Below, piece by piece: positions 7,979 through 33,417 of a stretch of 64,000 nt of DNA. The notes below the pieces were generated by a model that was not told the origin of the DNA, made no database searches, and saw only the letters and a list, made by a program, of their open reading frames with translations. Position numbers and translations under genes: made by a program. Every line of letters begins with the position of its first letter. Within the stretch, counting starts at the first letter, position 1. Source of the stretch: Chloroflexota bacterium. Lineage in GTDB: Bacteria; Chloroflexota; Dormibacteria; Dormibacterales; Dormibacteraceae. The DNA lies in contig VBIW01000034.1 in the NCBI GenBank assembly GCA_005880915.1, positions 186,001-250,000 of the forward strand, written 5' to 3'.

Positions 7979-8032
7979 GTTGGTGTCTAAACCATCCCGC
8001 GCTCGAGTGACGAGGTCGGGCGAGACTCAGCA

Positions 8033-8932: not shown

Positions 8933-8975
8933 TCGCTAGCCGGCTGAACCCGACGCCATAGACTTGTCTTCACCA

Positions 8976-13977: not shown

Positions 13978-14106
13978 AGGTTGCGTTCGGGTTGCATTTG
14001 GTGCAAGAAATCTGCCTCCGTTGCGTCCGTCTGAAATTCACGGCCTTTCGATAATGCTGGGCATTGCCCCATCGTTACCAAGCCTTAATGCCCTACCCGC
14101 ACCTGG

Positions 14107-15273: not shown

Positions 15274-15286
15274 CGCGGTGCACGGG

Positions 15287-16840
15287 TCACGGCGCTTGAG
15301 CGTTTTCCGGCGTCCGTTGATCCGGCCTTGGCCCGCGAGCGGAATCAAAAGCTTCGCGAAGCAAAACGCCACATATGAACCAAGTGAGGCCGAGACTCGT
15401 CAACACTTCCAATTGATCCGACACCATGCCGGCTGCAGCAAGAGCGCCCAGCGTCACACCTGCTGGAAAGCGAATGTCGCCATCGCGGAGCCCAGCCCGC
15501 ATCAATGTGACAGCACTCCAAACAAGGATCGCGGCCACCAACAGACCCCCAATGATGCTGACCTGCGCGGACGTGTCTAGGTAGAAGTTCTCGTAACTGC
15601 TGAGGTTGGCCGCAATAAACTTCGACGAGAGCACCCCTGCTGAACCAAGGCCCCCACCGAAAACGACGGCGTGCCAGTTGCTTCTTACGCGGTCTATCGT
15701 TGCGCTGACGTGGGTTGGAAGCGTGTCGCTCCCTAGCGGAGCGATTGGCGCGGAGGTAGCGCTGGGACTGCTTGGCGACTCTGGTGATGTTGGACTGGCT
15801 GTCTGGCCGCTGGAGGGTGAGACGATTGGGGCTGGACTCGCGGTCTGCCCTCGACTGGCTGATTGGAACAGGTCAGTGGAACTAACCCGGGTTGCAGTCG
15901 CCAACGCGAGGGCGCCGATCACACCTAATATCAATGCGGCAGCCACCGGTGTCGCGATGGCCCGCGTCAATAACTGCCGTCGTTTATATATCTCAAAAGC
16001 TGGCACCGCAATAGCGATTGCCACCAAGATCGCGATTGGTGCACGCGACAATGTCCACATCACGCCGATGGCGCTGAAAAGAGCGGCCGCACCTGGCAAC
16101 CAAACCTGGTGGCCGCGTAAATCTGGGCGACACAGCTCAGACAGTGCGAGTGCGAACGGGAGCAGGAGGTAGTACGAAAGGTCCAATGGATCGGTCATGA
16201 TGCCGACTCCGCGCCGCACAACGCCAGTATTAATTTGAAGGAAGAAGTTCCATGGCAGTCCGCCATTGAGAAAGCTAGGCGATATTCCTTTTACGTCGAC
16301 CCAATATTTCTGGAGGTTGATATCCAACCAGAACCGGGTCGGAATGAAGTCCCGCTCGACGATGACTGCCGCTCCGAGTACTATCGCCGTCAACCACAAG
16401 GTTCGCCGCAGTCGAATTACACCGCCTGGCGGAATCATCACCATGCCCACGACCAGCAGAAGCACCGGATATGCAACCGATCGCAACCCGCGAGCGATCT
16501 GCTCTAGTGGCTCGTGGCGGAAATAGGAGATCGGCACCCATATCGCGCAGAGTCCGCCGAAGGCAAGGGCCAGCCACAGGATGGCCGTGCCCCTACCTGC
16601 AGCAACCAGACGTAGTGCCTCGACGACGCCAACCACGATCGCGCCGGCAACGAGTGCCTCCTTTACATAGAGGAGGTCCCGCCCAACAGTTGCCGATTTC
16701 GTGATCACCCAAACCGTGATGACCACGGCATTCTGAAGCGCTAGCACCCAGATCAGGGTTTCGCTCCAAGCAATGGGCCACCTGAAAATCGCCCACGCGG
16801 ATGTGCCGGCGACAACGAGAACTAGCAGCGCCAGGACCAT
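15287..16840 (-). CDS. O-antigen ligase/polymerase-like membrane protein
   Basis: The 517-residue protein has about ten to twelve membrane helices. A large hydrophilic central loop contains a Ser/Pro/Thr-rich stretch (about residues 330-370, repeated SPSSGQTASP-like units), followed by LPTHVSATIDRVRSNWHAVVFGGGLGSAG and YENFYLDTSAQ. The G-x-G plus downstream hydrophilic segment resembles the periplasmic loop of the Wzy_C (O-antigen ligase) family. It probably polymerises or transfers the finished lipid-linked glycan outside the membrane. The Ser/Pro-rich insertion is unusual and may itself be glycosylated or unstructured. It is followed closely by the GT4 gene at 14107. Confidence 0.72.
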   Translation of the reverse strand: MVLALLVLVVAGTSAWAIFRWPIAWSETLIWVLALQNAVVITVWVITKSATVGRDLLYVKEALVAGAIVVGVVEALRLVAAGRGTAILWLALAFGGLCAIWVPISYFRHEPLEQIARGLRSVAYPVLLLVVGMVMIPPGGVIRLRRTLWLTAIVLGAAVIVERDFIPTRFWLDINLQKYWVDVKGISPSFLNGGLPWNFFLQINTGVVRRGVGIMTDPLDLSYYLLLPFALALSELCRPDLRGHQVWLPGAAALFSAIGVMWTLSRAPIAILVAIAIAVPAFEIYKRRQLLTRAIATPVAAALILGVIGALALATATRVSSTDLFQSASRGQTASPAPIVSPSSGQTASPTSPESPSSPSATSAPIAPLGSDTLPTHVSATIDRVRSNWHAVVFGGGLGSAGVLSSKFIAANLSSYENFYLDTSAQVSIIGGLLVAAILVWSAVTLMRAGLRDGDIRFPAGVTLGALAAAGMVSDQLEVLTSLGLTWFICGVLLREAFDSARGPRPDQRTPENAQAP

Positions 16841-16909
16841 GGGGTGATTAGGGATGGTAACAGCCGCGCGACCCCGTCCATCTCAAGCTCCCAATCGCTT
16901 GAACAACGG

Positions 16910-17713
16910 TCACCGCCCGCGTCTCGAAGACTCCTTTTCGAGCCGATCACGGCGCCTTAGGTCCCGGGCAGCCAAAACGAGTCGAGCTGTGATTATGGCG
17001 CCCCATGAGTAGCGTGCCCAAAGGCGTTGCGGACTCTGTAGCAGTCGGAATGCCCATTCGAGACCCACCCGCCGCATCCAGAAAGGAGCCCTGGCTTCTT
17101 GACCGGTAATGTACCCGTAGAGGCCGCCGGAGGTCATCAGGAGTCGCGCCCCGGTGCGGGCGCCAAATCGCTTGCAAAAGACCTGCTCTCGCGGTACGCC
17201 CATCGCGACGATTACGAGGTGAGCCCCAGTAGAAGCGATTGTGTCGGCAACTCTGTCCCCATCGTCAATCGGGAAATAGCCTGAAGCTACTCCAACCAAC
17301 CGAAGACCCGGCACACGACTGGCGGCAATGTCGGCCGCATTCGCTGCTTGGTTCTCTCGGCCACCAAGAAAAAAGACGGGGTGCTTTCCGACCGCTGCCA
17401 CCCGAAGAATCGGCCAGATAATGTCGGTCGTCACCAGCCTTTCCCGGATAAGAGCGCCCAAGGACTGACTTACGACACGCGTGGACACCCCGTCCGCGTA
17501 AAGGTACGTCGCGGTCGCCAGCGCGTCGCGATATGCCGGATCGCCCATCGCCGCGCTGAGATTACCGACGTGAATTCCGTAAGCTGTTGCTGGGCCGCCT
17601 TCAGTTTGCTCGAGGGTTGTCGCAAGTGCCTCGACGAGACTTTCCTCGGTGAAGTTCCCTACACGGGCGACTACTTGGGTCAGAACTTCTCGCGCGGCAG
17701 ATGTAGTCCTCAT
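16910..17713 (-). CDS. WecG/TagA/CpsF family glycosyltransferase (GT26)
   Basis: The protein has 267 residues, a usual length for the family. Recognisable segments are TYLYADGVSTRVVSQSLG (the family's D-G-x-x-V core), PVFFLGGRENQAANAA, LVIVAMGVPREQVFCKRF (the G-x-P-x-Q/K-E motif), MTSGGLYGYITGQEARAPFWMRRVGLEWAFRLLQSP and RLWARY near the C-terminus. Family members transfer N-acetylmannosamine or related sugars to lipid-linked GlcNAc in teichoic acid linkage-unit or ECA synthesis. The start ATG lies 10 nt downstream of the DUF4012 gene's stop, so the two are likely co-transcribed. Confidence 0.88.
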   Translation of the reverse strand: MRTTSAAREVLTQVVARVGNFTEESLVEALATTLEQTEGGPATAYGIHVGNLSAAMGDPAYRDALATATYLYADGVSTRVVSQSLGALIRERLVTTDIIWPILRVAAVGKHPVFFLGGRENQAANAADIAASRVPGLRLVGVASGYFPIDDGDRVADTIASTGAHLVIVAMGVPREQVFCKRFGARTGARLLMTSGGLYGYITGQEARAPFWMRRVGLEWAFRLLQSPQRLWARYSWGAIITARLVLAARDLRRRDRLEKESSRRGR

Positions 17714-17723
17714 GCAGTGAGGA

Positions 17724-19739
17724 TCAGCCGAGGCCTAGGCTCGGAAGCGCTGCCCTCGCCGCTCCGCCAGTCGCCAAGGTGACGCTGGTCGACGTCATCA
17801 CGATAATGCGGTCCTGGCGTAAGTCGCCGCTGACTTTGTAGGTGCTCCCTCCGCCGTTGTTCCAAACAATATCGACCGCGTCGCTGACCGTGCCTGGCTG
17901 CTTCTGCCAATAGATCTCGTCAAGCCCTCTAGGCGACGGTGCCCATGGCGTGTCGTATTCGAACACGGCTTGACCCTTGCCGCCACAGCACTGGATCTTG
18001 ATCGGGATCAGCCACCCGTCAAACAGCTTGGTACCCGCCGGAGCGGAAGGGTCCGCAAACTTCACGGGACTAAGGGTGTCTGACATGGTTGAAGCTGTTG
18101 CGGCAACGTAGAGACGGAGGTTGACTTCATAGAAGGTGACGACAAAAGAACCAGCAGGCGTTGCGTTGACCAAATCAACAATCACCTTGTGATGCAGGGT
18201 CGAACCGATACGAGTCAGCACCACGGTGTAGTGGCGGTTGACGAAGTAGTTCGCCTTGTCGCCTCCATAGTTGCTCTCGATCTCCATGAGGTAGTCGACG
18301 TTGCCATTCGGGTTCACACCCCCCGCCCATCCGACTCGATCGATCTCCGTCTCAACCAAATCACTGGTGAAGTAGGCCTGAAGATGGTGTTCGGCAGCGA
18401 GGCCGTTAAGAGCCGAAATCAGCGCAGGCCAGCGATCGGATGGAAGGGCCGACACGCGGGCCATCAGTGGGCCCGCGATCGCACTCAAAATCGCCTTGTG
18501 GGTGGCCGCATCTTTAAGGTCGATCTGAACGGCATAGGCTATGAAGTTAGTGGCGTCGACGGTCACCCCGTAGCCGGGCACCGCCAGCGGGCCCGTCAGC
18601 TCGAGCATCTTGGCGACCGTGTAGTAGTCGATAGCGATGACCGCGTCGATATTGATCCCGAGGCGCGGCTGAACGAAGTTCAGCGCAGCTTGGGCGTTCG
18701 ATGCAAAGTCCGGATAGATATTGGAATCGACGAAGCTCCAGCTGGCGGCAGGTAGAACATCTCGGAAAGGGCTCGGCTCGGGGATGAATCCGGGTTGTCC
18801 AGGCAAAGGTCGGGGAAGGGCCAAGTCATACGCGTCTCCGCTCTTGATCACGGTCATCGTGCCGTGATCCGTTCGCAGCAAGCTATACGTTCCAATGAAC
18901 CCGCCGCCGGCCCGAAGTTCTGCTGGGTTCACCTGTTCGATGAGGATTGTGCGAACCCCGTTGCCGCCCAGCACGTCATTCAATACTGGAACCAGACGCT
19001 CGAATTCATCGAGGCCTGCAAGCCCTGAGGCAATCGTGTCGCGCGCTTTCAAGAAGGTTGCCCGCTGCCCGGACGGAACCACCTCGAGGTCTACCTGGGC
19101 CGCAGCCGCTTGCGCCCTTACAAGGTCCAACCGGACTTTGGCCAGACTCGCGTGCGTCTGGTCAAGCACCGTAAGCAGAGTGCGGCCGGCCGGACCATCG
19201 GCCGACGGTTTCAGAAGCTGACCGTCAAGGTCAGCCAGCTCTCGACCGCTATCCGAGAGTGCAACTCCCATCCCTGCGATGCCGTCCACGGCGGCATGTC
19301 GCGAGTGAACTGCGGTGCCGGCCTCGGGTATCTCCTCTAAGTACTGGAGTAGGCGGCTGTTATCGGCCAATTGGCCGGCTGCCAGGAACTGCGTCTTGGC
19401 GGTTGCAAAGTGAGCAGTCGCCTGTGTGACAAGGGTTGCGTCGTGGTTGGAATTGGCCTCTTTGAGACTGGTCTTGCCGGCTTCAAGCTCCCGTTGTCCC
19501 GCCTGTAGGTAGGACGTCAGCGCTGCTTGGAGTTGGTCCGTTCGGTTTTTGACGTTGGTGTACCCAAGTGCGGAACCTCCACCAATGCTCGCCAAGATCA
19601 CGACGCCGATGCCAACGGCCAGCAGCCTGTGCGAGCGCAGCCGCCGACGCCTAGTGCCCCTCACCCGCGCCACTTTATCAGCCACAACCAAGGGTTTCGC
19701 TCCGTGTGGGAGCTGGGGTTGACGCCCAAAACAGCACAT
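17724..19739 (-). CDS. DUF4012 domain-containing membrane-anchored protein
   Basis: The protein has 671 residues. A basic N-terminus with a single membrane helix (about residues 40-60, LLAVGIGVVILASIGGGSAL) is followed by a long extracytoplasmic helical part. The DUF4012 core then contains ELRAGGGFIGTYSLL around residue 275 and AVIAIDYYTVAKMLELTGP. DUF4012 proteins commonly neighbour capsule and exopolysaccharide genes in Actinobacteria and Chloroflexota; their biochemical role is unknown to me. They resemble LytR-CpsA-Psr proteins in size and placement, and attachment of glycan to the wall is a guess. The start ATG lies just after the inverted repeat at 19743-19781. It is the first large gene of the minus-strand glycan run. 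Confidence 0.8.
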   Translation of the reverse strand: MCCFGRQPQLPHGAKPLVVADKVARVRGTRRRRLRSHRLLAVGIGVVILASIGGGSALGYTNVKNRTDQLQAALTSYLQAGQRELEAGKTSLKEANSNHDATLVTQATAHFATAKTQFLAAGQLADNSRLLQYLEEIPEAGTAVHSRHAAVDGIAGMGVALSDSGRELADLDGQLLKPSADGPAGRTLLTVLDQTHASLAKVRLDLVRAQAAAAQVDLEVVPSGQRATFLKARDTIASGLAGLDEFERLVPVLNDVLGGNGVRTILIEQVNPAELRAGGGFIGTYSLLRTDHGTMTVIKSGDAYDLALPRPLPGQPGFIPEPSPFRDVLPAASWSFVDSNIYPDFASNAQAALNFVQPRLGINIDAVIAIDYYTVAKMLELTGPLAVPGYGVTVDATNFIAYAVQIDLKDAATHKAILSAIAGPLMARVSALPSDRWPALISALNGLAAEHHLQAYFTSDLVETEIDRVGWAGGVNPNGNVDYLMEIESNYGGDKANYFVNRHYTVVLTRIGSTLHHKVIVDLVNATPAGSFVVTFYEVNLRLYVAATASTMSDTLSPVKFADPSAPAGTKLFDGWLIPIKIQCCGGKGQAVFEYDTPWAPSPRGLDEIYWQKQPGTVSDAVDIVWNNGGGSTYKVSGDLRQDRIIVMTSTSVTLATGGAARAALPSLGLG

Positions 19740-20460: not shown

Positions 20461-22605
20461 ATGAGGTCCCTCAACGGTCGATTCGCGGCTGCACTGCTAC
20501 TGACGAGCGCCCTGTTTTTGCCGGGCGTGTCGGGGGTTATGGCTCAGCCTATCCCCGGCACCAGCTGTTCCCTCTTCCCCGCCGACAGCGTCTTCAACGC
20601 TGACATCTCCAAGCTGCCCGTCCATTCGCAGAGCGCCACATGGATGGGCAACATGACGCAGCACTCCAACCTGCATCCCGATCTCGGCACCTTTGCCCAG
20701 TGGTACGGCATTCCTATCAATGTCGCGCCGCCCCCCACCTCGGGCCGCACCCCCACCTTTCTCTACAACTCGGAGAGTGACCACCCCACCGAGGGCTATC
20801 CCATCGACCAGAACACCTTTATCGAGGGCGGGCCTGGCGCATCGTCCGGCAGCGATCGGCATGCGCTTGTGGTCAGCAGCACCCTCTGCAAGCTCTACGA
20901 GATCTACAACCTCCAGAACTTCACCAGCGGCCAAACTCCTCAGGCCGGGTCGGGTGCGGTGTGGAACCTCAGCTCGGACGCCATGCGGCCCATCGGATGG
21001 ACATCGGCTGATGCGGCCGGGCTGCCCATGGCGCCGCTGCTCCTGCGCCCCGACGAGATCCTAGCCGGCAGCATCGCCCACGCGATTCGCTTCACCGCCC
21101 ACTGCACCCACGGCTATATCTGGCCCGGCTCGCACGATGCCGGCTCCTGCGACTCGAGCTTCCCGCCCATGGGCGCTCGCTTCCGCCTTCGCGCGAACTT
21201 CGACATCTCCGGCTTCAGCGCCAACACGCAGGTCGTCCTGCGTGCCTTCCAGCGCTACGGGATGATCCTGGCCGACAACGGGTCCGACTGGTTCTTCGGC
21301 GGCACCACCGATAACTGGTGGGGCACCACGGCCGGCGGCATGGTGGTCAGCGAGCTGAAGAACATCCCGGCGGCGCAGTTCGACGCGGTGGACGAATCGG
21401 GCATGCAGGCGGCTCCCGGCTCCTACGCCGCGCTCAGCTGCGCGGGGACGCCTTTGTTCACCAGCTACTTCAGCTGGTTCGACAAGGCGTCGGCGGGCAT
21501 GGTCAACGACAACATCCACCTGCTCAACACCGGTGGCTCCATGAGCACAGGTTGTCTCTCGCTCGGTGGCGTGTCGGTCCCGTTCAACGTCGCCGCCGGC
21601 CAGGAGACTTACCTCTCCTTCCCCGCCGGCACGATCGGCGGGCCGGTTGTCGTGTCGGTGCTGTCAGGGCCGGCGGTCCTTGCCTCCCAGCGCGTGCAGT
21701 ACTACCAGAGCTTCAACGAGGTCTGGGCCATGAGTCCATCCCAGGCCGCGACCACGTCGTACTTGAGCTGGTTCGACAAGGCTTCGACCGGAATGGTCGG
21801 CGACAACATCCACGTCCTGAATCCGGGCTCGGTCGTCGCCCATGTCATTGCGAGCCTCACCGGGGCAACGCCGATCGCATTCACGCTCGCTGCCGGGGCC
21901 GAGACCTACGCCTCGTTCCCTGCGGGCACGATCGGCGGTCCTGTCGTGGTCACGGCCGACCAGGCGGTGCTGGCCTCGCAGCGCGTGCAGTACTACCAGA
22001 CGTTCAACGAGGTGGTCGCTCGCGGCGCCGCCCGGGCCTCGATGACCAGCTACTTCAACTGGTTCGACAAGGCCTCAGCCGGCATGGTCGGTGACAACAT
22101 CCACCTCCTCAACACCGGGGGCAGCCCGGCGCATATCACGGTCGGCATGCCGGGCACCAGCCCGGTCGTGGTCACACTGGCGCCGCTGGCGGAGACCTAC
22201 GTCACCTTCGCCGCCGGAAAGATCGGCGGCCCTGTCACGGTGACTTCCGATCAGCCCGTGCTTTCCTCGCAGCGGGTGCAGTACAACCAGAGCTTCAACG
22301 AGACACCTTCCGAAAGCGCGGCACAGGCCCAGACCTCGAGCCACATCATGTGGTTCGACAAGACGTCGGCCGGGATGCTGAACGACAACATCCATGTCCT
22401 CAACACCAGCGGGCTGCCCGCCAGCGTAACCGTCAAGCTCGGTACCAGCTCTGACGTCTTCACGCTGCCGGCCGGGATGGAGACTTACGTGTCGTTCCCG
22501 GCGGGCAACATCGGTGGACCGGTGACGATCACCTCGAGCCAGCCTGTGCTTGCCGCCCAGCGGGTGCAGTACTTCCAGACCTTCAACGAAGTCCCCGCCG
22601 CCTGA
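20461..22605 (+). CDS. secreted protein: conserved N-terminal domain plus four C-terminal modules
   Basis: The 714-residue protein begins with a signal peptide (about residues 1-28, ending GVMAQ). Residues 30-325 form a conserved secreted domain. Landmarks are PADSVFNADISKLPVHS, LHPDLGTFAQWYGIPI, SDRHALVVSSTLCKLYEIY, GWTSADAAGLPMAPLLLRPDE, HAIRFTAHCTHGYIWPGSHDAG and YGMILADNGSDWFF. I have the impression of similar secreted actinobacterial proteins of unknown function. From about residue 333 come four modules of about 95 residues with the pattern [32 protein letters not shown] and ASQRVQYYQSFNE. The last ends at the C-terminus. All four are of the WFD type, unlike the minus-strand relatives. 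It is the only plus-strand member of the five-gene module family. Confidence 0.75.
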   Translation: MRSLNGRFAAALLLTSALFLPGVSGVMAQPIPGTSCSLFPADSVFNADISKLPVHSQSATWMGNMTQHSNLHPDLGTFAQWYGIPINVAPPPTSGRTPTFLYNSESDHPTEGYPIDQNTFIEGGPGASSGSDRHALVVSSTLCKLYEIYNLQNFTSGQTPQAGSGAVWNLSSDAMRPIGWTSADAAGLPMAPLLLRPDEILAGSIAHAIRFTAHCTHGYIWPGSHDAGSCDSSFPPMGARFRLRANFDISGFSANTQVVLRAFQRYGMILADNGSDWFFGGTTDNWWGTTAGGMVVSELKNIPAAQFDAVDESGMQAAPGSYAALSCAGTPLFTSYFSWFDKASAGMVNDNIHLLNTGGSMSTGCLSLGGVSVPFNVAAGQETYLSFPAGTIGGPVVVSVLSGPAVLASQRVQYYQSFNEVWAMSPSQAATTSYLSWFDKASTGMVGDNIHVLNPGSVVAHVIASLTGATPIAFTLAAGAETYASFPAGTIGGPVVVTADQAVLASQRVQYYQTFNEVVARGAARASMTSYFNWFDKASAGMVGDNIHLLNTGGSPAHITVGMPGTSPVVVTLAPLAETYVTFAAGKIGGPVTVTSDQPVLSSQRVQYNQSFNETPSESAAQAQTSSHIMWFDKTSAGMLNDNIHVLNTSGLPASVTVKLGTSSDVFTLPAGMETYVSFPAGNIGGPVTITSSQPVLAAQRVQYFQTFNEVPAA
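21459..22602 (+). repeat. four tandem ~95-aa module repeats (gene at 20461)
   Basis: The modules begin near nt 21459, 21756, 22044 and 22332. Each encodes the pattern W-F-D-K-x-S-x-G-M, D-N-I-H-x-L-N, E-T-Y, GGPV and QRVQY-x-Q-x-FNE. Pairwise similarity is visible at protein and DNA level, for example GTGCAGTAC near the end of every unit. Confidence 0.85.
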
Positions 22606-22777
22606 GGGCGGTTCCCCCCTCGAACGGCACCTACTTGAGTGACCTGGCCAGGGTCGCTCGCTTTGCCGGCTTGGATCAAAGGAGCCGCAACCATCTACTG
22701 GGTTGGCGTTGGGCCGTTCCGGCAGGTAGTTGCGCCCACCAGTTCCGCCCTGGGTGTCATTCCGGGCGGTCTCTAAC

Positions 22778-24859
22778 TTAGCCGGTCCAGATCTCGTTGA
22801 AGCTCGAGTAGTACTGCACGCGCTGCGAGGCGAGCACCGGCTGGGATGAGGTCACTGTGACCGGACCGCCGATCGTGCCCTGCGGAAACGTGCCGTAAGC
22901 CTCGGCTCCGGCCCCGACCGACACCTGCTGCGTCGTGGCGCCCGGCATGCTGATCGTCACGGTGGCCGCTGTCGTTCCGGGGTTGAAGACGTGGATGTTG
23001 TCGTTGAGCATCCCTGACGAGGCCTTGTCGTACCAGTTCACATGACTGGTCGCCATGGCCTGGGCCGCGCTCTCGGACCACACCTCGTTGAAAGTCTCGG
23101 CAAACTGCACTCGCTGCGAGGCGAGCACGGCCTGGGTGGAGGTCACGGTCACCGGTCCCCCGATCGTGCCCTGCGCGAACGCCGCGTAGCCTTCCGCGCC
23201 TGCTGCGACACTCAACGTCTGCGACGTCGCGCCTGGCGTTTTGATCGTCACGGTCGCAGCCGTGCCGCCGGGGTTGAGGATGTGGATGTTGTCGTTCAGC
23301 ATTCCGGTGGACGCCTTGTCGTACCAGTTGACGTAGCTGATCGTCGTCGCCATCGCTGCGCTCTCCGCCCACACCTCATTGAAAGATTGGTGGAACTGGA
23401 CCCGCTGCGAGGCCAGGACGGGTTGGTTCGAGCTCACCTTCACCGGGCCACCGATCGTCCCCTGTGGGAAGGCCGCGTACGACTCCGCCCCCGCGGCGAT
23501 GTTGAGCTGCTGGGATGGCGCGCCGGGCAGGCTGATGGTCACGGTAGCCGCCGCCGTCCCCGGGTTGAGGACGTGGATGTTGTCGTTGAGCATGCCCATC
23601 GACGCGTTGTCGTACCAGTTGATGTAGCTGGTCGCCGATGCCTGGGTCGGGCTCTCTGCCCAGACCTCGTTGAACGACTGGTAGAACTGCACTCTCTGCG
23701 AAGCCTGCACCCTCGGACCGGAGCTGAGCGAGACGAGGACAGGTCCGCCGATGGTCCCTCGCGGGAAGGAGACATAGTTCTCCTGGCCGGCGGCCACGCT
23801 GAATGCGACCGACTGTCCGGCTACATACACGGTGCCCGTGCTGGTGGTCGCGCCCGTGTTCACCAGGTGCACGTTGTCGGACATGCCCTGGGACGCGTTG
23901 TCGAACCAGCTGAAGTAGCCCACCACGGATGACGTCGGAGGTGGTGGTGGTGGCGGGGGTGGTGGGGGTGGTGGAGGTGGTGGAGGTGGCGTCACTGCGC
24001 TGAAGAGGTCTGTCATCTGGGCGGCGCCCAGGTCGTTCGATGTCATGGTCGTGAGACCGAGTCCCGCTTCGATCGTGCGCAGGAGCGAGTAGTGGTTGTA
24101 GCCCAGCGCGCTCGAGGCACCCGCGCCGACGCCGGAGCCGAGCATGAGCATCGCGACCTTGTTCGGGTTAGTCGAGGCGCCCTCGTCCCACACGACCGCG
24201 AGCAGCGAATGTTGAGTGGTGAAAGCGGGCGACTTGAGGATCACCGGCATCTGCTGCGACAACCACGTGTCGCCCGTTTGCACGGTGCAGTCGTGCGTGT
24301 CGTTGCACATGTTCGGAGTGATGAAGGCGTAGCTCGGCGTCGTGCCCGTCGACGAGAGGTCGGTCGACATCTGCGTGTAGGGGACGACGTGACTCTGGCA
24401 GCGGGCCGTGTTGGTGCGGATGTCGTTGAAGTAGATGAAGGGATCGTGCTTCTGCATGTACGGGTAGCTGTCGCCGACGAAGCACGCCGATGGCATCGAC
24501 TCTTCATATGCCTTCCACGTCTTGCCTGCACTTTCGACGCGGTCCGCGATGTTGGTGGCTGAGACCCAGCACGTCGTGCAGTCGGAGGTGATGCCGTATG
24601 TGTCGCCCCCTGTGAGCGACAGGTAGTTCGGAAGGCTCGGATGACCTATTGCGTAGTAGTTCGCGCCTAGTCCTCCGGACGGCAGAAGGCCGTTGACGTA
24701 GGGGGCGGCTGAGCTGCCGATGATCTGTCCGTAGTCCTGGTTCTCCATCACGATGACGAAGACGTGATCGAGGGCGGGCACAGTCGCGGCCGCCTGTGTG
24801 CTTAGTGGCACACACAGCGTCAGACCGAGCGCGCCGAGGGCAGCAATCGCTCGTCGCAA
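22778..24859 (-). CDS. secreted PF04185-type phosphoesterase plus four C-terminal modules
   Basis: The protein has 693 residues. A signal peptide (about 1-24) precedes a phosphoesterase/acid phosphatase-like domain (about 28-285) of the alkaline phosphatase superfamily. VPALDHVFVIVMENQDYGQI carries the metal-binding E-N motif, HPSLPNYLSLTGGDT the His/Ser-Thr region, and AVVWDEGAS with YNHYSLLRTIEAGLGL the C-terminal metal site. Family members hydrolyse phosphate monoesters or phospholipids (phospholipase C/AcpA group). A run of about 18 prolines (residues ~290-307) links it to four modules starting at about residue 311. The first is WFDNAS; the others are WYD. The start codon is TTG. Likely surface or secreted phosphate scavenging, by inference. 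Confidence 0.82.
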   Translation of the reverse strand: MRRAIAALGALGLTLCVPLSTQAAATVPALDHVFVIVMENQDYGQIIGSSAAPYVNGLLPSGGLGANYYAIGHPSLPNYLSLTGGDTYGITSDCTTCWVSATNIADRVESAGKTWKAYEESMPSACFVGDSYPYMQKHDPFIYFNDIRTNTARCQSHVVPYTQMSTDLSSTGTTPSYAFITPNMCNDTHDCTVQTGDTWLSQQMPVILKSPAFTTQHSLLAVVWDEGASTNPNKVAMLMLGSGVGAGASSALGYNHYSLLRTIEAGLGLTTMTSNDLGAAQMTDLFSAVTPPPPPPPPPPPPPPPPPPTSSVVGYFSWFDNASQGMSDNVHLVNTGATTSTGTVYVAGQSVAFSVAAGQENYVSFPRGTIGGPVLVSLSSGPRVQASQRVQFYQSFNEVWAESPTQASATSYINWYDNASMGMLNDNIHVLNPGTAAATVTISLPGAPSQQLNIAAGAESYAAFPQGTIGGPVKVSSNQPVLASQRVQFHQSFNEVWAESAAMATTISYVNWYDKASTGMLNDNIHILNPGGTAATVTIKTPGATSQTLSVAAGAEGYAAFAQGTIGGPVTVTSTQAVLASQRVQFAETFNEVWSESAAQAMATSHVNWYDKASSGMLNDNIHVFNPGTTAATVTISMPGATTQQVSVGAGAEAYGTFPQGTIGGPVTVTSSQPVLASQRVQYYSSFNEIWTG
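22781..23926 (-). repeat. four tandem ~95-aa module repeats (gene at 22778)
   Basis: Reading 5'->3' on the minus strand, module 1 has WFDNASQGM and HLVNTG, modules 2-4 have [20 protein letters not shown] or close variants, and module 4 ends FNEIWTG. The DNA of modules 2-4 is highly alike. Confidence 0.85.
23938..23993 (-). repeat. polyproline-coding linker
   Basis: A run of CCx codons on the minus strand encodes about 18 consecutive prolines between the phosphoesterase domain and the first module. It should form an extended polyproline II spacer. Length variation between strains is expected for such a run. Confidence 0.85.
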
Positions 24860-25105
24860 GACGGGCGCCAGTCTGACCAGGGGTCCCTATGAGGCAGACC
24901 CAGGGGGGTTAAGCGTCGTTAACGAACGGCTGCTATCGCGGTCAAACGGGTCATATCCCTTGAATGGCGACCAGTACGGATTCGAAGCGACGTAAACATC
25001 TTTGGCCAGTCGCTTATGAACGGCAATTGGGTGTTCGTGGCTGCCCCATCCCCGCCGCAAGCGGCGGTACTTCCCCACTGCGTGGGGAAGAGTTTGCCTA
25101 TGCAG
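24860..25105. other. intergenic stretch with a double hairpin
   Basis: The 246 nt between two module genes hold no gene I can support. The part next to the gene at 25106 carries the double hairpin listed at 25052-25090. The rest probably holds the promoter of the phosphoesterase gene; no clear -35/-10 pair stands out. Confidence 0.4.
25052..25090 (-). terminator. double hairpin downstream of the GH5 module gene
   Basis: Two perfect hairpins stand side by side: CCGCCGC/GCGGCGG with a 2-nt loop (25052-25067), and arms CTTCCCCAC/GTGGGGAAG with a 3-nt loop (25070-25090). They start about 15 nt downstream of the stop codon at 25106. A near copy lies at the same place after the CAP gene (28133-28171). 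They are likely transcription ends or mRNA-stabilising elements, though there is no T-run. Confidence 0.5.
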
Positions 25106-27922
25106 TTAGGCGGTCCAGATCTCGTTGAAGGACGAGTAGTACTGGACCCGCTGCGACGCGAGCACGGCCGGTCCTGAGGTGACGGTCACGGTGACCGGCC
25201 CCCCGATCGTGCCCAGCGGGAAGGTCGCGTAAGCCTCGCCGCCGGCCGGCACGCTGAGATTCTGCGTCGGCGCGCCCGGCAGGCTCACCGTCACCGAAGC
25301 CGGCGTCGCACCGGGGTTGAGGATGTGGATGTTGTCGTTGAACATGCCAGGCGAGGCCTTGTCGTACCAGTTGATGTGGCTGGTCATCGACGCCTGGGAC
25401 GCGCTCTGGGCCGGGACCTCATTGAAGGTCTGGGCGAACTGCACACGCTGCGAGGCCAGCACGGGCTGGTTGGAACCCACGGTCACCGGGCCGCCGATCG
25501 TGCCCTGCGGGAAGGTCGCGTAAGACTCGGCTCCGGGTCCGACGTTCAGCTGCTGCGTCGGCGCTCCGGGCAGGCTGATCGTCACCGTCGCCGCCGTCCC
25601 ACCTGGGTTGAGCACATGGATGTTGTCGTTGAGCATCCCCGCGGAGGCCTTGTCGTACCAGTTCACATAGCTCGTGGTCGCTGCTTTGGCCGCGCTCTCA
25701 GCCCAGACTTCGTTGAAGGACTGGTTGAACTGGACGCGCTGCGAGGCCAGCACCGGCTGGCTGGAGGTCACGGTCACAGGACCGCCGATTGTCCCCTGCG
25801 GAAAGGTCGCGTAGGACTCGGCGCCAGGGCCGAGCATCAAGTGCTGGGCGATCGCGCCGGGCAAGCTGACGGTCACGTTGGCTGTCGTCGACCCCGGGTT
25901 CAGCACGTGGACGTTGTCGTTGAGCATTCCCGCCGACGCCTTGTCGTACCAGTTGATGTACAGCGTCGTCGCGGCCTCTGCCGCGCTCTCCGCCCAGACT
26001 TCGTTGAAGGACTGGTTGAACTGCACGCGCTGCGAGGCCCGAACCGCGGGGCCTGAGGTGACGTTCACCACCACGGGTCCGCCGATCGTTCCGGACGGGA
26101 AGCTCACGTGGGTTTCCGCGCCCGCCGGCAGGCTGAATGGGATCGGAGGAAGGCCGCCCAGGGTGACCACCCCGCTGCTGGTCGAATTTCCTGGATTGAG
26201 GAGGTGGATGTTGTCGCCGACCATTCCAGCGCTCGCTTTGTCGAACCAGCTGAGATACGCCGTGTAGACGACGTACGAGAACTGGTCGGCAGGCGTCGAG
26301 GCGCTCGTCCCGTTGGACGTGGTCACCGTGACGTGTACCGTGCCGGAGCCGGCCGGGCTGGTCGCTGTGATCTGGGTCGCGCCGTTGACCGTGAAGGCGG
26401 CCGCGGCGCTACCACCGAACGCGACTGCAGTGGCGCCGGTGAAGTTGGTGCCCTTGATGGTGACCGACGTCCCGCCGCTGACGGGTCCGCTGTTGGGCGC
26501 CACCGACGTCACGGTCGGCACCAGGGAGACGAATGTGAACTGGGACGCTCCGGAGCCGATGCTTGTTCCGCTGGGTGTTGTCACCGTGACGCTCACCACT
26601 CCGGAGCCCGCGGGGCTGGTCGCCGTGATCTGGGTCGCGGTGTTGACCGTGAACGCGGCCGCGGCGCTACTACCGAACGCGACCGCAGTGGCGCCGGTGA
26701 AGTTGGTGCCCGTGATTGTCACCGACGTCCCACCGCCTGCGGGGCCGCTGTTGGGGGCCACCGAGGCGACTGTGGGTGCGTTGGGCGTGGTCAACGAGGC
26801 GAGGTGGTTCTTGAAACCAAGGCCGTAGGTGGTCGGGGTCCCGGCGTAGTCCGAGATCAGGGCTTGCTGGTTGCCCCACGTGTCCCAGGTCCACGCGAGG
26901 TAACCAATGCCATGTGCGTCGGCCCACGGCATGATCGTCTCGATGTAGACGTCGAAACCCATCTCGCCAAACGTCACCGGCACCTGTGCAGCCGTCGGAG
27001 CGTAGATGTTGTTCCAGATTGTGGGCGTGTCCCAACCGCTCACTCCGTAGTTGTGGATGCCGGCCATCGTCTGGGCGTCGGAAGGCCGGTTGGCCAGCCA
27101 GCCGCTCAAGTCGTAACCCCAGCTGAGCCCTTGCATGAGGATGACGTTGGTCGCCCCCGCTGCGCGCACGGCGGAGACCATGCTGTTCATCCCGGCGGCC
27201 TGATACGCGCTGACGAAGTTGACGCCCCCGGTTACCTGACAGCCGTTTGCCCAACACGTCCAGCTGATGTCGTGCGGCTCGTTGTAGAGGTCGAAGATGA
27301 CGCCCCGATCGCCTTTGAAGGCGTTGGCCACCGACGTCCACATCGCCGGCGCGTGATCGGCGTCGGCCATCGGGAGGATCGTGCTCGCTTGCGTGGTTCC
27401 AGCCCCGGCGAACTGGTTGTCCAGGATCACGTACAGGCCGTGCGCCCGAAGGCGCGTGACGAAACCCGTGATCGCTGACTGGTAGTTGGCGCCGGCAAAG
27501 CTGGGATTGATGCCGTTGATGCCGAGCCAGCAGTCTTCGTTGAACGGGACTCGCACGACATTGATGCCCCACGCGGCCATCGCCGCGATGGATGCGTCAT
27601 CGCTTGGGCCGTCGAAGAAACCCCAGCCCTGCTGGCACGCGTACTCTGCGCCGCTTCGGTTGACGCCGCGCAGGATGACCGTTTTGCCGTTGTCGACCAG
27701 CTGGTTGCCTGAAACGGCGAGAGTCGACGTGGAGGCTGCGCGCGCCGAGCTGACTCGGAGGGCCGACTGAGACCAGGGCACGCACAACAGCACAGACACT
27801 GCGAGCGCGGCAATCGGAATACGCCTCAGCAGGCCATGGATTCGCGGCTTCGCGTGCGATCCTCCCGTGGTCAGACCTCCAGACTGGAGATGGCCGGCAG
27901 AGCAGTCAGCCTCAGGGCCCAA
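25106..27922 (-). CDS. secreted GH5 glycoside hydrolase with two IPT/TIG domains and four modules
   Basis: The protein has 938 residues. A signal-peptide-like segment (about residues 33-64) is followed by a glycoside hydrolase family 5 domain (about 65-375). It opens with GKTVILRGVNRSG, then INVVRVPFNEDCW and LYVILDNQFAG. The acid/base Glu lies in IFDLYNEPHDISW (near residue 216) and the nucleophile Glu in VTFGEMGFDVYI (near 319). Two IPT/TIG beta-domains follow (about 380-465 and 467-545, each with PTVxSVAPNSGP and GTSVTI), then four modules from about residue 552. It probably hydrolyses a beta-glucan or beta-mannan outside the cell. The apparent TTG start at 27922 is weak, and the N-terminal 30 residues may not be translated. 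Confidence 0.85.
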   Translation of the reverse strand: MGPEADCSAGHLQSGGLTTGGSHAKPRIHGLLRRIPIAALAVSVLLCVPWSQSALRVSSARAASTSTLAVSGNQLVDNGKTVILRGVNRSGAEYACQQGWGFFDGPSDDASIAAMAAWGINVVRVPFNEDCWLGINGINPSFAGANYQSAITGFVTRLRAHGLYVILDNQFAGAGTTQASTILPMADADHAPAMWTSVANAFKGDRGVIFDLYNEPHDISWTCWANGCQVTGGVNFVSAYQAAGMNSMVSAVRAAGATNVILMQGLSWGYDLSGWLANRPSDAQTMAGIHNYGVSGWDTPTIWNNIYAPTAAQVPVTFGEMGFDVYIETIMPWADAHGIGYLAWTWDTWGNQQALISDYAGTPTTYGLGFKNHLASLTTPNAPTVASVAPNSGPAGGGTSVTITGTNFTGATAVAFGSSAAAAFTVNTATQITATSPAGSGVVSVTVTTPSGTSIGSGASQFTFVSLVPTVTSVAPNSGPVSGGTSVTIKGTNFTGATAVAFGGSAAAAFTVNGATQITATSPAGSGTVHVTVTTSNGTSASTPADQFSYVVYTAYLSWFDKASAGMVGDNIHLLNPGNSTSSGVVTLGGLPPIPFSLPAGAETHVSFPSGTIGGPVVVNVTSGPAVRASQRVQFNQSFNEVWAESAAEAATTLYINWYDKASAGMLNDNVHVLNPGSTTANVTVSLPGAIAQHLMLGPGAESYATFPQGTIGGPVTVTSSQPVLASQRVQFNQSFNEVWAESAAKAATTSYVNWYDKASAGMLNDNIHVLNPGGTAATVTISLPGAPTQQLNVGPGAESYATFPQGTIGGPVTVGSNQPVLASQRVQFAQTFNEVPAQSASQASMTSHINWYDKASPGMFNDNIHILNPGATPASVTVSLPGAPTQNLSVPAGGEAYATFPLGTIGGPVTVTVTSGPAVLASQRVQYYSSFNEIWTA
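25109..26268 (-). repeat. four tandem ~95-aa module repeats (gene at 25106)
   Basis: Module 1 is WFDKASAGM with HLLNPG and an extra loop (VNVTSGPAV). Modules 2-4 are WYDKASxGM with NDN-x-H-x-LNPG. Module 4 has the longer VTVTSGPAV variant and ends FNEIWTA, as in the CAP gene. Confidence 0.85.
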
Positions 27923-27987
27923 TAACGGCGATTTCTCCGGATCCCTGCACGTTGGGCCGGTTCGAGCCCGACTTGCCAGGTTCAGCA

Positions 27988-28009
27988 GGTCCAGATCTCG
28001 TTGAAGGAC
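27988..28009 (-). repeat. orphan fragment of a module-gene 3' end
   Basis: Twenty-two nucleotides between two module genes are identical to the segment just inside the 3' ends of the genes at 25106 (from 25110) and 28188 (from 28192), encoding the FNEIWT terminus. Nothing of the rest of a module surrounds it. It looks like a scar of duplication or recombination between module genes. Confidence 0.7.
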
Positions 28010-28132
28010 AGCACGGCTGTGAGCAACTCAGGGCCGAAGAAGCCGGAAGGGGGAATCACCAGGCGGGAGCCATATCGCCCGGCAACTATACGCATGAGAA
28101 CCCCGACCGACGGCATCGAGAAAGCCCCATCC

Positions 28133-28171
28133 CCGCCGCAAGCGGCGGTACTTCCCAACTGCGTGGGGAAG
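28133..28171 (-). terminator. double hairpin downstream of the CAP module gene
   Basis: A near-identical copy of the element at 25052-25090: CCGCCGC/GCGGCGG (28133-28148), then CTTCCCAAC and GTGGGGAAG (28151-28171) with one mismatch. It lies about 17 nt after the stop at 28188. The same arrangement after both genes suggests the whole 3' region was duplicated together with the coding repeats. Confidence 0.5.
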
Positions 28172-28187
28172 AGGCTTCCTATTGCGG

Positions 28188-30551
28188 TCAGGCGGTCCAG
28201 ATCTCGTTGAAGGACGAGTAGTACTGGACTCGCTGCGACGCGAGCACCGCGGGGCCTGACGTGACGGTCACAGTCACCGGCCCGCCGATCGTGCCCTGCG
28301 GGAAGGTCGCGTAGGCCTCGCCGCCTGCAGGCACGATCAGGTTCTGCGTCGGTGCGCCCAGCAGGCTCACCGTCACCGTCGCCGCTGTCCCCCCGGGGTT
28401 GAGGATGTGGATGTTGTCGTTCATCATCCCTGGCGATGCCTTGTCGTACCAGACCACGTGGCTTGTCGCCGAGGCCTGGCTTGCGCTCTCGGCCCAGACC
28501 TCGTTGAACGACTGGGCGAACTGGACGCGCTGCGACGCGAGCACCGGCTGCACCGAGCTCACCGTGACGGGGCCGCCGATTGTGCCCGCGGGGAAATTCG
28601 CGTAGGCCTCCCCACCTGCGGGCACGCTGAGGTGCTGCGACGTGGCACCCGGCGTGCTGATCGTTACGGTCGCGGCCGCCAGGCCCGGGTTGAGGACGTG
28701 GATGTTGTCATTCAACATCCCGTTCGAGGCCTTGTCGTACCAGTTGATGTAGCTGGTCGACGCTGCCTGGGTTGCGCCCTGCGCCCAGACCTCGTTGAAG
28801 GACTGCTGGAACTGCACGCGCTGCGAGGCCAGCACCGGCTGGCTCGAGGTCACGGTCACCGGTCCGCCGATGCTGCCCTGCGGGAAGGTCGCGTATGACT
28901 CGGCTCCGGGGGCGATGCTCAGGTTCTGCGTCGGCGCGCCGGGAAGGGTGATGGCCACGTTGGCCGTTGTACCGCCGGGGTTCAGGACGTGGATGTTGTC
29001 GTTGAGCATTCCGTTCGACGCCTTGTCGTACCAGTTGATGTAGCTCGTCGCCACGGCCTGCGCCGCCGTCTTGGCCCAGACCTCGTTGAAGGATTGCTCA
29101 AACTGCACCCGCTGCGAGGCCAGGACCGACTGGTCCGCATTGACGAGGACCGGTCCGCCGATGTGGCCGGGGCCAAAGCTGACGTGAGTCTGCGCGCCGG
29201 ACGCGAGCACCACGTTGATGCCGCTCGCGCCGGGCATCGTCACCGTCACGTTGGCGGTTGAACCGCTCGTGTTGAGCAGGTGGATGTTGTCGTTCATCAT
29301 GCCGACCGACGCCAGGTCGAACCACTGGAAGTACGACGTGAGGCCCGTGAATGTGAACTGGTCGAGCGGCGAGATGCCACTCGTGCCGCTTGCCGTGGTC
29401 ACGGTCACGTCCACACTGCTGACCGTCTGGGCTGGGCTCACCGCCGTGATGGTCGTGTCATTGACCACGCTGAAGCTGGCAGCCGCCGCCGTCCCGAACT
29501 TGACCGCGGTGGTCCCGTTGCTGAAACCAGTCCCCGTGATGGTCACAGACGTTCCGCCGGATGACGGGCCCGAGTTGGGGGCGACTTTGACCACGGTCTG
29601 CTGGCTCGCCGGCGTCGGCCCCCCGCCGACTGTGAAGGACCACGTGTAAGGCACGAGATTTACCGTCAGCGTGACCACGTATGTGGTGCCGCTCACAAGC
29701 GGGTTTTGAGGCATCAGGATCACCGCGCCGCGCCACGTCAGATAGCTGGCGAAGCTGGCGTTGGTCGAATCGATGGTGCAGGTGTTGAGCAGAGTTCCGT
29801 TCGCGCTCAGCGTGTGGGCGCCGGCGGTGGTGCTGATGTTCCCCCCCACCTCGATGAAGATCGGCAATCCGCTGTAGCCAGGGCAGGCGGCCTGCGGATT
29901 GGGCGTTTCATTTCCGCTGTAAGACGTGAGCGGCTCGGTCGAGCCGTTGCCCGGGAAGAAGGTCGGGAGCGTGTACAGACCGAGGGCTGACGAGTTGCCG
30001 TGGCTGGTGTCAACGGCGGCACCCATCTGCCACGGGCTCGTCGTGGTGTCTCGATACGATCCGAAACCGGTCGACGAAAGTCGAGGGTCCATCATCGCCA
30101 TCGCGTGGAAAGGCGCTGCCATCCACCAGTCGATGGACTGGCTGTCGGTTGTGGCGGTGCTCGAGCTGACGAAGATGTTGGAGTTCTGTCCGGCGACGTC
30201 TCCCGCGGCGGTGTAGTAAGGGTTGGCCGGATCTTCGCCGTGGGTGACCAGGCCGGTCTTGACCATGTAGTAGGCGTGGCTCGCGTCCCCGGCGCTCCAC
30301 GTCGTGTTCTCGGTCAGGTTGGGCAGGCCCACGCTCGCCCGCCAGGCGTTGAGGCGGGTCAGCCAGGGGCCGCTGGCGGCGGGATTGCTGTCCAGGTGAG
30401 CCGGCCGCGCGGGCTGGGCCGCCACGAACGCGAGGCAGACGGCCGCCAGCACGGCTGTCGTGAGGCTTCGCTTCAGGTTCGGTCTGAGTCCCGGGACGGC
30501 CGCCAAATGGCCTGCCCCATGGGGAGTCCTGGTGCCCACCGCGAGCGACAA
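28188..30551 (-). CDS. secreted CAP-domain protein with IPT/TIG domain and four modules
   Basis: The protein has 787 residues. An N-terminal hydrophobic segment (about 28-52) is a signal peptide. A CAP (SCP/PR-1-like) domain spans about 60-190: WLTRLNAWRASVGLPNL, the His-containing WSAGDASHAYYM, HGEDPANPYYT and SIDWWMAAPFHAMAMMDPRL. A beta-rich stretch (about 200-315) is followed by one IPT/TIG domain (about 317-400, VVKVAPNSGPSSGG) and four modules from about residue 403. CAP domains occur in secreted proteins with varied roles including lipid binding and proteolysis; no specific activity can be claimed. The open frame starts at a GTG (30551), but a TTG about 15 codons later would give a cleaner signal peptide. 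Confidence 0.8.
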   Translation of the reverse strand: MSLAVGTRTPHGAGHLAAVPGLRPNLKRSLTTAVLAAVCLAFVAAQPARPAHLDSNPAASGPWLTRLNAWRASVGLPNLTENTTWSAGDASHAYYMVKTGLVTHGEDPANPYYTAAGDVAGQNSNIFVSSSTATTDSQSIDWWMAAPFHAMAMMDPRLSSTGFGSYRDTTTSPWQMGAAVDTSHGNSSALGLYTLPTFFPGNGSTEPLTSYSGNETPNPQAACPGYSGLPIFIEVGGNISTTAGAHTLSANGTLLNTCTIDSTNASFASYLTWRGAVILMPQNPLVSGTTYVVTLTVNLVPYTWSFTVGGGPTPASQQTVVKVAPNSGPSSGGTSVTITGTGFSNGTTAVKFGTAAAASFSVVNDTTITAVSPAQTVSSVDVTVTTASGTSGISPLDQFTFTGLTSYFQWFDLASVGMMNDNIHLLNTSGSTANVTVTMPGASGINVVLASGAQTHVSFGPGHIGGPVLVNADQSVLASQRVQFEQSFNEVWAKTAAQAVATSYINWYDKASNGMLNDNIHVLNPGGTTANVAITLPGAPTQNLSIAPGAESYATFPQGSIGGPVTVTSSQPVLASQRVQFQQSFNEVWAQGATQAASTSYINWYDKASNGMLNDNIHVLNPGLAAATVTISTPGATSQHLSVPAGGEAYANFPAGTIGGPVTVSSVQPVLASQRVQFAQSFNEVWAESASQASATSHVVWYDKASPGMMNDNIHILNPGGTAATVTVSLLGAPTQNLIVPAGGEAYATFPQGTIGGPVTVTVTSGPAVLASQRVQYYSSFNEIWTA
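28191..29342 (-). repeat. four tandem ~95-aa module repeats (gene at 28188)
   Basis: Module 1 is WFDLASVGMMNDN with HLLNTS. Modules 2 and 3 both read WYDKASNGMLNDN with HVLNPG. Module 4 is WYDKASPGMMNDN and ends FNEIWTA. Modules 2 and 3 are nearly identical at their starts, which suggests recent unit duplication or conversion. Confidence 0.85.
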
Positions 30552-30585
30552 CGAGGCGACGGGCTCTTTCTTGCTGCCCAGCCGG

Positions 30586-33417
30586 CTAGCCGGCCGCCCA
30601 CACCTCGTTGAACGACTGGTCGAATTGAACCCGCTGCGAGGCCAGGACCGGCTGGTCGGAAGTGACCGTCACGGGCCCGCCGATCGTGCCTTGTGGGAAG
30701 CTCGCGTACGCCTCAGCTCCGGCTCCGACGGTCAGCTTCTGCGCGGTGGTTGTGCCCGGCACGGTGATCGTCACCGTGGCGGGCGCCGTGCCCGGATTGA
30801 GGACGTGGATGTTGTCGTTCAGCATCCCGGGCGACGCGTGGTCGTACCAGTTGACGTAGCTGGTCGTCGCCGCCTGGGATGGATCCTGGGCCCAAACCTC
30901 ATTGAAGGATTGGTTGAACTGCACCCGCTGCGAGGCAAGCACCGGGTGGTCGGAGCTGACCTTCACCGGCCCGCCGATGGTCCCTTGCGGGAAGGTCGCG
31001 TACGCCTCCGCTCCGGCGTCGATGGTCAGCTGCTGGCTCGCCACGCCCGGGAGGCTGACCGTCACGGTGGCCTTCGCGGTACCTGGGTTGAGCACGTGGA
31101 TGTTGTCGTTCACCATCCCGAGCGAGGCCTTGTCATACCAGTTGATGTAGCTGGTGGCCGCGGCTTGGGCGGGGCCCTCGGCCCAGACCTCGTTGAAGGT
31201 CTGCTCGAACTGCACGCGCTGCGAGGCAAGCACCGGATGGTCCGAGCTCACCGTGACTGGGCCGCCTATGGTGCCTTGCGGGAAGGTCGCGTAAGCCTCT
31301 CCTCCGGGCGCGACTGTCAGGTGCTGCGCGGTCGCGTTCGGCAGGCTCACGGTCACGTGGGCGGTGCTCGCGCCCGGGTTGAGGACATGGACGTTGTCGT
31401 TCACCATCCCCGACGATGCCTTGTCGTACCAGTTGATGTAGCTCGTCGTCGACGCTTGCGCCTGGCTCTGCGCGGCAACCTCGTTGAAGGACTGGTGGAA
31501 CTCGACGCGCTGTGAGGCGATCAGCGGCTGGTTCGAGCTGACGGTAACCGGCCCGCCGATCGTGCCGGCGGGGAACGTGGTGTAGACCTCCTGCTTTGAG
31601 AGGACGGTGACGGTCACCGGGTTCGCACCGGGCATGCTCAATGTCACGAGCGTGCTCGCCTGGCCCTCGTTGAACAGGTGGATGTTGTCCGAGACCATCC
31701 CGTTCGAGGCCTTGTCAAACCAGTTGAAGTAGCTCACGAACTGCGTGTACGTGAAATGGTCGGCAACCGAGGCCGCACTGGTGCCGCCCGACGTGGTGAC
31801 AGTCACATCCACTGTTCCCGTCGCGGCGGCGCGAGGGCTGACGGCGCTCGCTTGCGTGTCAGAGATCTGCGTGACGTTGGTGGCCGCATTCGCCCCGAAA
31901 TGGACCGCGGTCAGGCCGGAGAGGGCGCAGCCCGTGATCGTCACGCCGGTCCCTCCATCGGCAAGGCCGGTGTTCGGTGCGATGCCGGTGACCGTCGGCG
32001 CGTGCTGCACGGCAGTGATCGGCTGCGACGTGGAACTTTGCCATCCGTCCACGTCAGTCACCGTGAGCGTGACCGTGTACACACCTGGCGAGCAGAAAAG
32101 ATGTGACGGAGTGGCGCCACTTCCGGCGCCGGTGCCATCACCCCAGCTCCACGAATAGGTGAGCGGGGTGCTTCCGCCGTCGACATCAGCGGAGGCGGAC
32201 GCATCAAAGCTCGCGCTGGTCCCGGCGTCCACCATCGACGGCGCTGTAAACGACGTGGTGGGCAGCTCCTCCTGCTGGACGCAGCCCTTGACCTGGGTGC
32301 CGCGGATCGAATCGCCGATGCCCACGGCGAAGTCCTCGTTGCTGAACTCGTCCTGGGTGTAGTACTTCCCAGTGCCGACCACCTGGTTGTAGAAGGCGCC
32401 TGCTGAACCAAGGGGTGCGCCGTAGACGTAAGCGCATTGATCCCCGTCTTCCCAGCCGGCCGAGTCGATCCACGCGCCCGCCCAATCGGTGATGATCTCG
32501 TTGGCTTCGTGGCTGATCAGGCTGACCTGGGCATCGGCGGCGACGTCGCCGTTGGGCGCCTGAGGTCCGTTGACCGGATCCGTGCATGCGTTCAGGTCCG
32601 GATAGGGCTCATTGCCGTAGATGAGCCAGGGCGCGGCGGCGCTCGAGGTGTGATACGCGCAGTAATCCCTGGCGCTGCATTTCACGTTGCTGCTCGTGCT
32701 CGGCGCCGTACAGGTCTCCACCGCTTGCGGAAAAAACACGAGATAGGCATGTGAATCGTCGACGGGCAAACCTTTTGCGGCGGCCAAGGATTTCAGCTCG
32801 GCCTGGAGCGCGCCGTCGGTGATGCACGCGCTGAAGCCGGTGGCGGCCGTGCAGCCGTTGGTCCCACCTTGCGCCGGATAGGCCGTCGCGTCGTCGACTT
32901 CGGCGCCTGCCGTCACGACGTACTGGATGTGCTCAAGAGGCGACCCGGCGGGCGTGTCTTGCTGGTAGTACTGCGTCGAGACCGAGAACACGTTGGTGTT
33001 CTGCCTGCTCGCGGCGGCGACGTTCTGCAGGTAGCCGTTGATGATCATCTTGTATGTCGAGGTGCCATATGAATAGCCTGCCGGGGCCCAGTAGACGGGC
33101 GTCAACGTAACGTGGCCAGGCGTTCCCGTGATGCCTCCGATCACTGGGACACCGCGGGTGAAAAGTAGAGGTGGGCTGCACCTCGGGCAGTAGGGGTCGG
33201 CGCTGGGTGCGATGGTGTTGGTGTTGGTCGATGCATTCGGCGAGCGGCTCGCGTGTGGCACAAGACCGCGTGGATGGTTGGCCGCCGAGGGGTGAACCTT
33301 CCAGTGCTGCGCCGAAAGTTCGGCTCGCGCGGACGCGTGGACGGGAATCATTTCGGGCAGCGCCGGAGCCGCGAACAGGACGTACAACGCAGCCGCGACA
33401 CCCGTGCCACGGCGCAT
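30586..33417 (-). CDS. secreted exordium/peptidase-like protein with PKD, IPT/TIG and four modules
   Basis: The protein has 943 residues and starts at an ATG with a signal peptide of about 20 residues. Residues about 75-385 form a domain with [44 protein letters not shown] and [21 protein letters not shown]. The H-E-x-x-E-x-x-x-D segment (near residue 301) recalls secreted proteins of the exordium/phosphate-induced type; a zinc site is possible but not shown. A PKD domain (about 395-460, SWSWGDGTG and [15 protein letters not shown]) and an IPT/TIG domain (about 470-552) precede four modules from about residue 558. It is the first gene of the four-gene minus-strand module row. Confidence 0.75.
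30589..31742 (-). repeat. four tandem ~95-aa module repeats (gene at 30586)
   Basis: Module 1 is [13 protein letters not shown] with HLFNEG and the divergent ASQRVEFHQ. Modules 2-4 are WYDKAS/WYDHAS with NDN-x-HVLNPG. The last ends FNEVWAAG at the C-terminus. Confidence 0.85.

Follow-up and report, generated by a model that had tools for sequence, protein, structure and literature searches.

Five adjacent genes, which encode predicted secreted proteins with different heads and a common C-terminal tail, lie in a 64,000-nucleotide stretch of a Dormibacteraceae (Chloroflexota) genome (contig VBIW01000034.1, C1:186001-250000; hereafter the window). All five open reading frames (ORFs) end in exactly four modules of about 97 residues, spaced 97–99 residues apart (Table 1), which confirms the constant tail reported in a preliminary description of the window. 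The phosphoesterase, GH5, CAP and PKD assignments of that description are reproduced by Pfam, whereas its "exordium" label has no such match at E ≤ 1. No credible Pfam match was found for the head of w1 or for the region of w5 that precedes the PKD domain. A 731-residue protein without a Pfam match, membrane-protein-like by eye, adjoins the cluster on the same strand (33498-35693).

Table 1. Tail proteins and neighbouring glycan genes in the window (window positions).
Feature	Position	Strand	Content
w1	20461..22605	+	head (residues 1-332, without credible Pfam match), four-module tail
w1 tail	21457..22602	+	four modules
w2	22778..24859	-	phosphoesterase PF04185 (24056-24706), proline linker, four-module tail
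w2 tail	22781..23926	-	four modules
w3	25106..27922	-	GH5 PF00150 (26882-27691), two TIG (about 26273-26776), four-module tail
w3 tail	25109..26266	-	four modules
w4	28188..30551	-	CAP PF00188 (30042-30359), TIG (29349-29594), four-module tail
w4 tail	28191..29342	-	four modules
w5	30586..33417	-	head without credible Pfam match, PKD (32026-32262), TIG (31747-31998), four-module tail
w5 tail	30589..31740	-	four modules
Glycan-biosynthesis locus	1781..19739	.	candidate ligand source; methyltransferases, GT4 and GT2 glycosyltransferases
GDP-mannose 4,6-dehydratase	8964-10013
Initiating sugar transferase	10361-11167		Bac_transf
WecG/TagA	16910-17713
DUF4012 protein	17724-19739		between glycan locus and tail cluster

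Six further four-module proteins directly precede the window (contig positions 166867-183559) and bring the genome total to 11 tail proteins and 44 modules, with four in each of the 11. The upstream six comprise one headless protein, one unnamed head, one PQQ-type propeller (27.3 bits, slightly below the PF13360 cut-off of 27.6), two GH18 proteins and one short TIG protein. A hydrophobic N-terminus was found in 10 of the 11 by a rough hydropathy check. The strict motifs described earlier hold over the 44 modules, most sites being kept in at least 40. In the first block, W, D, S, G and D are present in 44/44, as are, in GGP, the second G and the P and, in the last motifs, the R, F and E. The H and both N of the DN..H..N block are present in 43/44, the first G of GGP in 42/44 and the N of FNE in 40/44; fewer than 40 modules have the M of GM. 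Position-1 modules form a separate class, with 58.6% identity among themselves and 53-55% to the other positions, where identities are 61-66%.

Application of a single-module profile to 110 genomes of the class revealed modules convincingly in this genome (the 44) and in five others. All 21 uncut tail proteins, counted by ORF, carry four modules at the C-terminus: 11 in this genome, four in G025 (one with a frame that stays open up to the start of its contig), three in G034 and one each in G054, G060 and G001. The count excludes a further four-module ORF of G001, truncated on the 5´ side, and also shorter pieces from contig ends or broken frames. Since uncut tails were found only in fours, the number is not a matter of chance, and the fixed number on varied heads noted for the window extends to the class. 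Among 120 listed close relatives (of 387), 119 have four modules with 0-4 residues after the last one, and a single protein, P0010, has five; two tails in fetched loci are followed by 4 and 6 residues. The named relatives are metagenome-assembled genomes (MAGs) labelled Chloroflexi or Candidatus Dormibacteraeota, which by inference places the window in the same group. The distribution is patchy, with tails in one of 16 other genomes of the genus. Several contigs of genome G215 (among C3, C4, C8 and C12) begin inside a module, as if the repeats broke the assembly, so its tail copy number is probably underestimated.

Two related branches of tails were compared with those of the window. The FAEG-type tetrads of Chloroflexota, which are listed with DUF5719 (PF18986) and often with ASRT (PF07100), keep to the same number, exactly four modules being present in 116/120 proteins listed. 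Their heads (S8, GH18, CAP, amidase) overlap the window's repertoire, and an eight-gene cluster occurs within the same class, in genome G101. In contrast, their tails are about 23-34% identical to window-type tails over the aligned parts, and the GGPV and FNE motifs are absent from four typed examples. The second branch (L070, L072 and P0122-P0241), marked by WFPWYD, has no Pfam name and is called Anaerolineae-type after the named records P0193 and P0196. Its members are the nearest relatives found beyond the class (profile E 1.3e-15) and share the WYD, GGPV, SxRV and FNE motifs and varied heads, which include GH16, GH5 and peptidase. Unlike the window tails, its chains mostly start inside a module, the first part of which is supplied by a C-terminal fragment; the permuted tails still sum to about four modules. 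Because the listed distant relatives are mostly permuted (three modules plus complementary end pieces) and three relatives have eight modules, four modules look like one closed unit.

The preliminary description knew of no named domain for the module. This stands insofar as no credible Pfam or NCBIfam model covers it; the predicted fold is that of the described ASRAH/ASRT superfamily (PMC2739507). DUF5719 has no match at E ≤ 1 in the window proteins, and one upstream protein reaches 20.5 bits against the curated cut-off of 26.2. That cut-off is reached in 4/7 relatives, which were picked because they are listed with PF18986, and the best stretches span just 29-54 residues. AlphaFold modelling of a whole tail, as proposed earlier, gave a single confident unit with a predicted local distance difference test score of 93.7 and a predicted template modelling score (pTM) of 0.90. 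After residue-level realignment of Foldseek candidates, its best structural matches are Thermotoga TM1070 (PDB 1NC7) and the Anabaena sensory rhodopsin transducer (ASRT), both homotetramers of the ASRAH superfamily (PMC2739507). Profile comparisons link the module to the FAEG-type branch (E 9.5e-7) and that branch to ASRT (E 1.8e-12). The module, about 100 residues long, is predicted to be a beta-sandwich whose eight strands follow the topology of TM1070, and an Asn that ends strand 2 before a tight turn, present in 529 of 544 modules (136 entries, 6 of them duplicates of this genome's proteins), is in register with an ASRT Asn in the hhalign alignment. Strand 1 of ASRAH proteins opens with a conserved Trp; a Trp is present in 44/44 modules, but the module-ASRT profile alignment stops short of it. 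Members of the superfamily occur as solo tetramers, dyads or tetrads, and the tail has four modules. On these models the tail module almost certainly has the ASRT/ASRAH fold, and the four modules probably close into a ring like the TM1070 homotetramer.

In the profile alignment, the module's D-N-I-H-V-L-N falls on E-A-V-C-I-L-N of ASRT, so the module His takes the place of the Cys that lines the ASRT cleft (PMC2739507). The His is kept in 543 of the 544 modules, at all four positions, and sits in the strand lining the pocket of TM1070. The exception is the diverged third module, with an insertion and a Tyr for the His, of the headless protein (L010:867-2288, contig 167-168 kb), which consists of a hydrophobic N-terminal segment and the tetrad alone. 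The same site is mostly Leu or Ala in the FAEG-type branch and mostly Leu or Val in the permuted one. The alignment thus points to four His-lined sites per tail and a ligand that may be branch-specific.

Heads have been exchangeable in the course of evolution. In a quick tree of 78 tails whose heads were labelled, 21 head changes were counted, compared with a minimum of 7 and a shuffled mean of 43.5 (0/200 shuffles were as low), which indicates that tails are mostly co-inherited with their heads and repeatedly exchanged. The G101 cluster (L103/L104, G101:C480; MAG contamination is possible) comprises eight FAEG/DUF5719-type tail proteins in a row. An insertion splits the second module, so that five profile pieces match each protein; we read these tails as four modules each. 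Pfam searches of five of the eight proteins gave GH18, M23, CAP, a BNR-like match below cut-off and one unnamed head; two more resemble PQQ propellers, one of them by BLAST. The G101 PQQ protein and L036 are 42% identical in their heads and 23% in their tails (E 0.23), whereas L036 and the PQQ protein of the window's genome share 43% and 54%, respectively. Similarly, the G101 GH18 head, which is cut by a contig end, is 44% identical to that of P0060 over 229 residues, and the tails are 26% identical. The CAP heads of the two branches are just 26% identical, too distant for inference. Homologous heads in different species thus bear very different tetrads; on heads of one kind, one tetrad seems to have taken the place of another, suggesting that window-type and FAEG-type tetrads do equivalent jobs.

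The glycan locus noted earlier beside the cluster is present: glycan-biosynthesis genes adjoin the tail genes (Table 1). Both tail clusters of the genome lie near such genes, and two of its four initiating sugar transferases are less than 20 kb from tail genes. In four other genomes, markers were found near 3/9 tail loci: a tail of G025 (contig C2) is 1.9 kb from an initiating sugar transferase gene, and those of G054 and G060 adjoin a UDP-glucose dehydrogenase-type gene. Two genes (L009:10621-12672) that by eye resemble a polysaccharide exporter pair of the ABC type lie some 6 kb ahead of the upstream tail cluster.

Domains that act on the wall or on glycans are frequent among the heads, and both tail clusters of this genome lie near glycan genes; we therefore lean towards a closed multivalent glycan anchor, with a polymer of the cell's own surface as the likely ligand. 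Four tandem beta-sandwiches of the ASRT/ASRAH fold would close into a rigid pseudo-tetramer, each module keeping a ligand pocket with the His. The ligand would be either peptidoglycan or the product polysaccharide of the neighbouring locus, and four sites acting jointly would hold the varied, predicted secreted heads at the cell. The common surface-anchoring, secretion or assembly device proposed earlier thus survives as a putative anchor, which is the best reading, and has no evidence of its own as a device for secretion or assembly.

Several observations weigh against this reading. As to the fold, Foldseek's own ranking places other chains first, with whole-model TM-scores of at most 0.17 and no ASRT among the 50 rows listed. 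Direct comparison of the module and ASRT profiles gives a weak match (E 0.0042, probability 8%), which stays weak with an enlarged set (E 0.0026, probability 11.7%, 0/150 decoys as high). Decoys did match in two related comparisons, those of the module with a small FAEG set (3/150) and of the permuted branch with ASRT (6/150). PF07100 was found in 0/61 genomes of the group, and sequence searches of the PDB revealed no direct link of the module to ASRT. A rigid open arc could also yield a high pTM, and the sugar-binding proposal of 2009 for ASRAH rests on computation (PMC2739507). The permuted ends are not always complementary: in a quarter of the 94 first modules the match to the profile starts at position 14 or before, and at least 5/121 proteins of that branch are unpermuted fours. 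In P0196, a protein of the cultured Ornatilinea apprima, four modules lie near the N-terminus and 308 further residues come after them, so modules of this type need not form a tail. At 6/9 tail loci outside the genus, the search for glycan markers gave none. The PQQ, phosphoesterase and headless proteins are not obviously wall-acting. Convincing tails occur in only 6/110 genomes of the class, and are therefore no general anchor of these bacteria; all six genomes also carry sortase genes.

The same pseudo-tetramer could instead bind a ligand outside the cell, as a multivalent carbohydrate-binding module that targets enzymes to foreign polysaccharide. Chitin or plant glucans could be substrates of the GH18 and GH5 heads, GH16, GH5 and peptidase heads occur on permuted-branch tails, and the patchiness of tails among species resembles that of many accessory catabolic functions. 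However, many heads are wall-directed or non-hydrolytic (amidase_2, M23, CAP, PQQ propeller, headless), and the glycan-biosynthesis genes near both of the genome's clusters also make this alternative unlikely. A rigid scaffold or multimerisation device, working through protein-protein contacts without a glycan ligand, would find a precedent in the ASRT tetramer, which is reported to bind a rhodopsin and DNA (PMC8660804), and co-assembly is conceivable for eleven proteins that share one tail in a cell. We consider it improbable, given the nearly invariant residue at the putative pocket; moreover, a ring closed within one chain, if it forms, would already use the tetramer interface.

A sorting signal, read by dedicated machinery and active only during export, would agree with the C-terminal position in 120/120 listed close relatives with varying heads. 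It is nevertheless highly improbable: about 385 ordered residues with a would-be pocket in each module exceed the needs of a signal, the proteins mostly have hydrophobic N-termini, and related tetrads sit on similar heads elsewhere in the phylum. Independent Ig-like spacers, whose number reflects recent duplication, are disfavoured and very hard to credit: modules within a protein are 61% identical, like those between proteins, but four are kept across branches with tails about 25% identical, permuted relatives sum to about four, proteins with eight exist, position-1 modules are distinct and the pTM applies to the whole unit.

Compared with the ASRAH/ASRT proteins, the tail has His for the pocket Cys and lacks a conserved His at the other pocket position. 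The SHEshChhN signature of the ASRT family proper, with its pocket His and Cys, is absent, and there is no direct PF07100 match. ASRAH family 2 is described as invariably fused to an amidase (PMC2739507); the heads here range far beyond it (CAP, GH18, GH5, PQQ, phosphoesterase), amidase being one of several. The GGPV, QRV and FNE motifs are not mentioned in the main text of that paper. The fold was thus already described, and the superfamily, its tandem tetrads and the sugar-binding hypothesis were published in 2009 (De Souza, Iyer and Aravind; PMC2739507). As far as our searches show, the window's branch with its relatives, the His, the wide head range, the permuted form, the eight-module proteins and the replacement of tails are new.

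A glycan-anchor role of the tetrad would give a function to thousands of tails (3993 FAEG-type matches alone), would allow the 2009 proposal to be tested directly on a single soluble domain, and would provide a structural reason for the number four, namely a homotetramer made covalent. To our knowledge, little is known of how Dormibacteria and many other Chloroflexota retain secreted proteins at the surface. The SLH and CWB2 surface-anchoring modules have a fixed copy number of three, form a closed pseudo-symmetric unit, occur as one tail on many heads and bind a wall glycan. We tentatively propose that the sensory-rhodopsin-transducer fold, fused four times, may serve across Chloroflexota as a self-closing, universal and interchangeable surface anchor, with one pocket in each module whose key residue varies by branch (His in that of the window), rings that permuted ends close in another branch and tails swapped on conserved heads; it would be the third anchor of fixed copy number, beside these two. 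The tail resembles SLH and CWB2 in its fixed number, its probably closed pseudo-symmetric unit and its use on many heads, and differs from them in its unrelated fold, in four copies instead of three and in having a candidate ligand where theirs is known.
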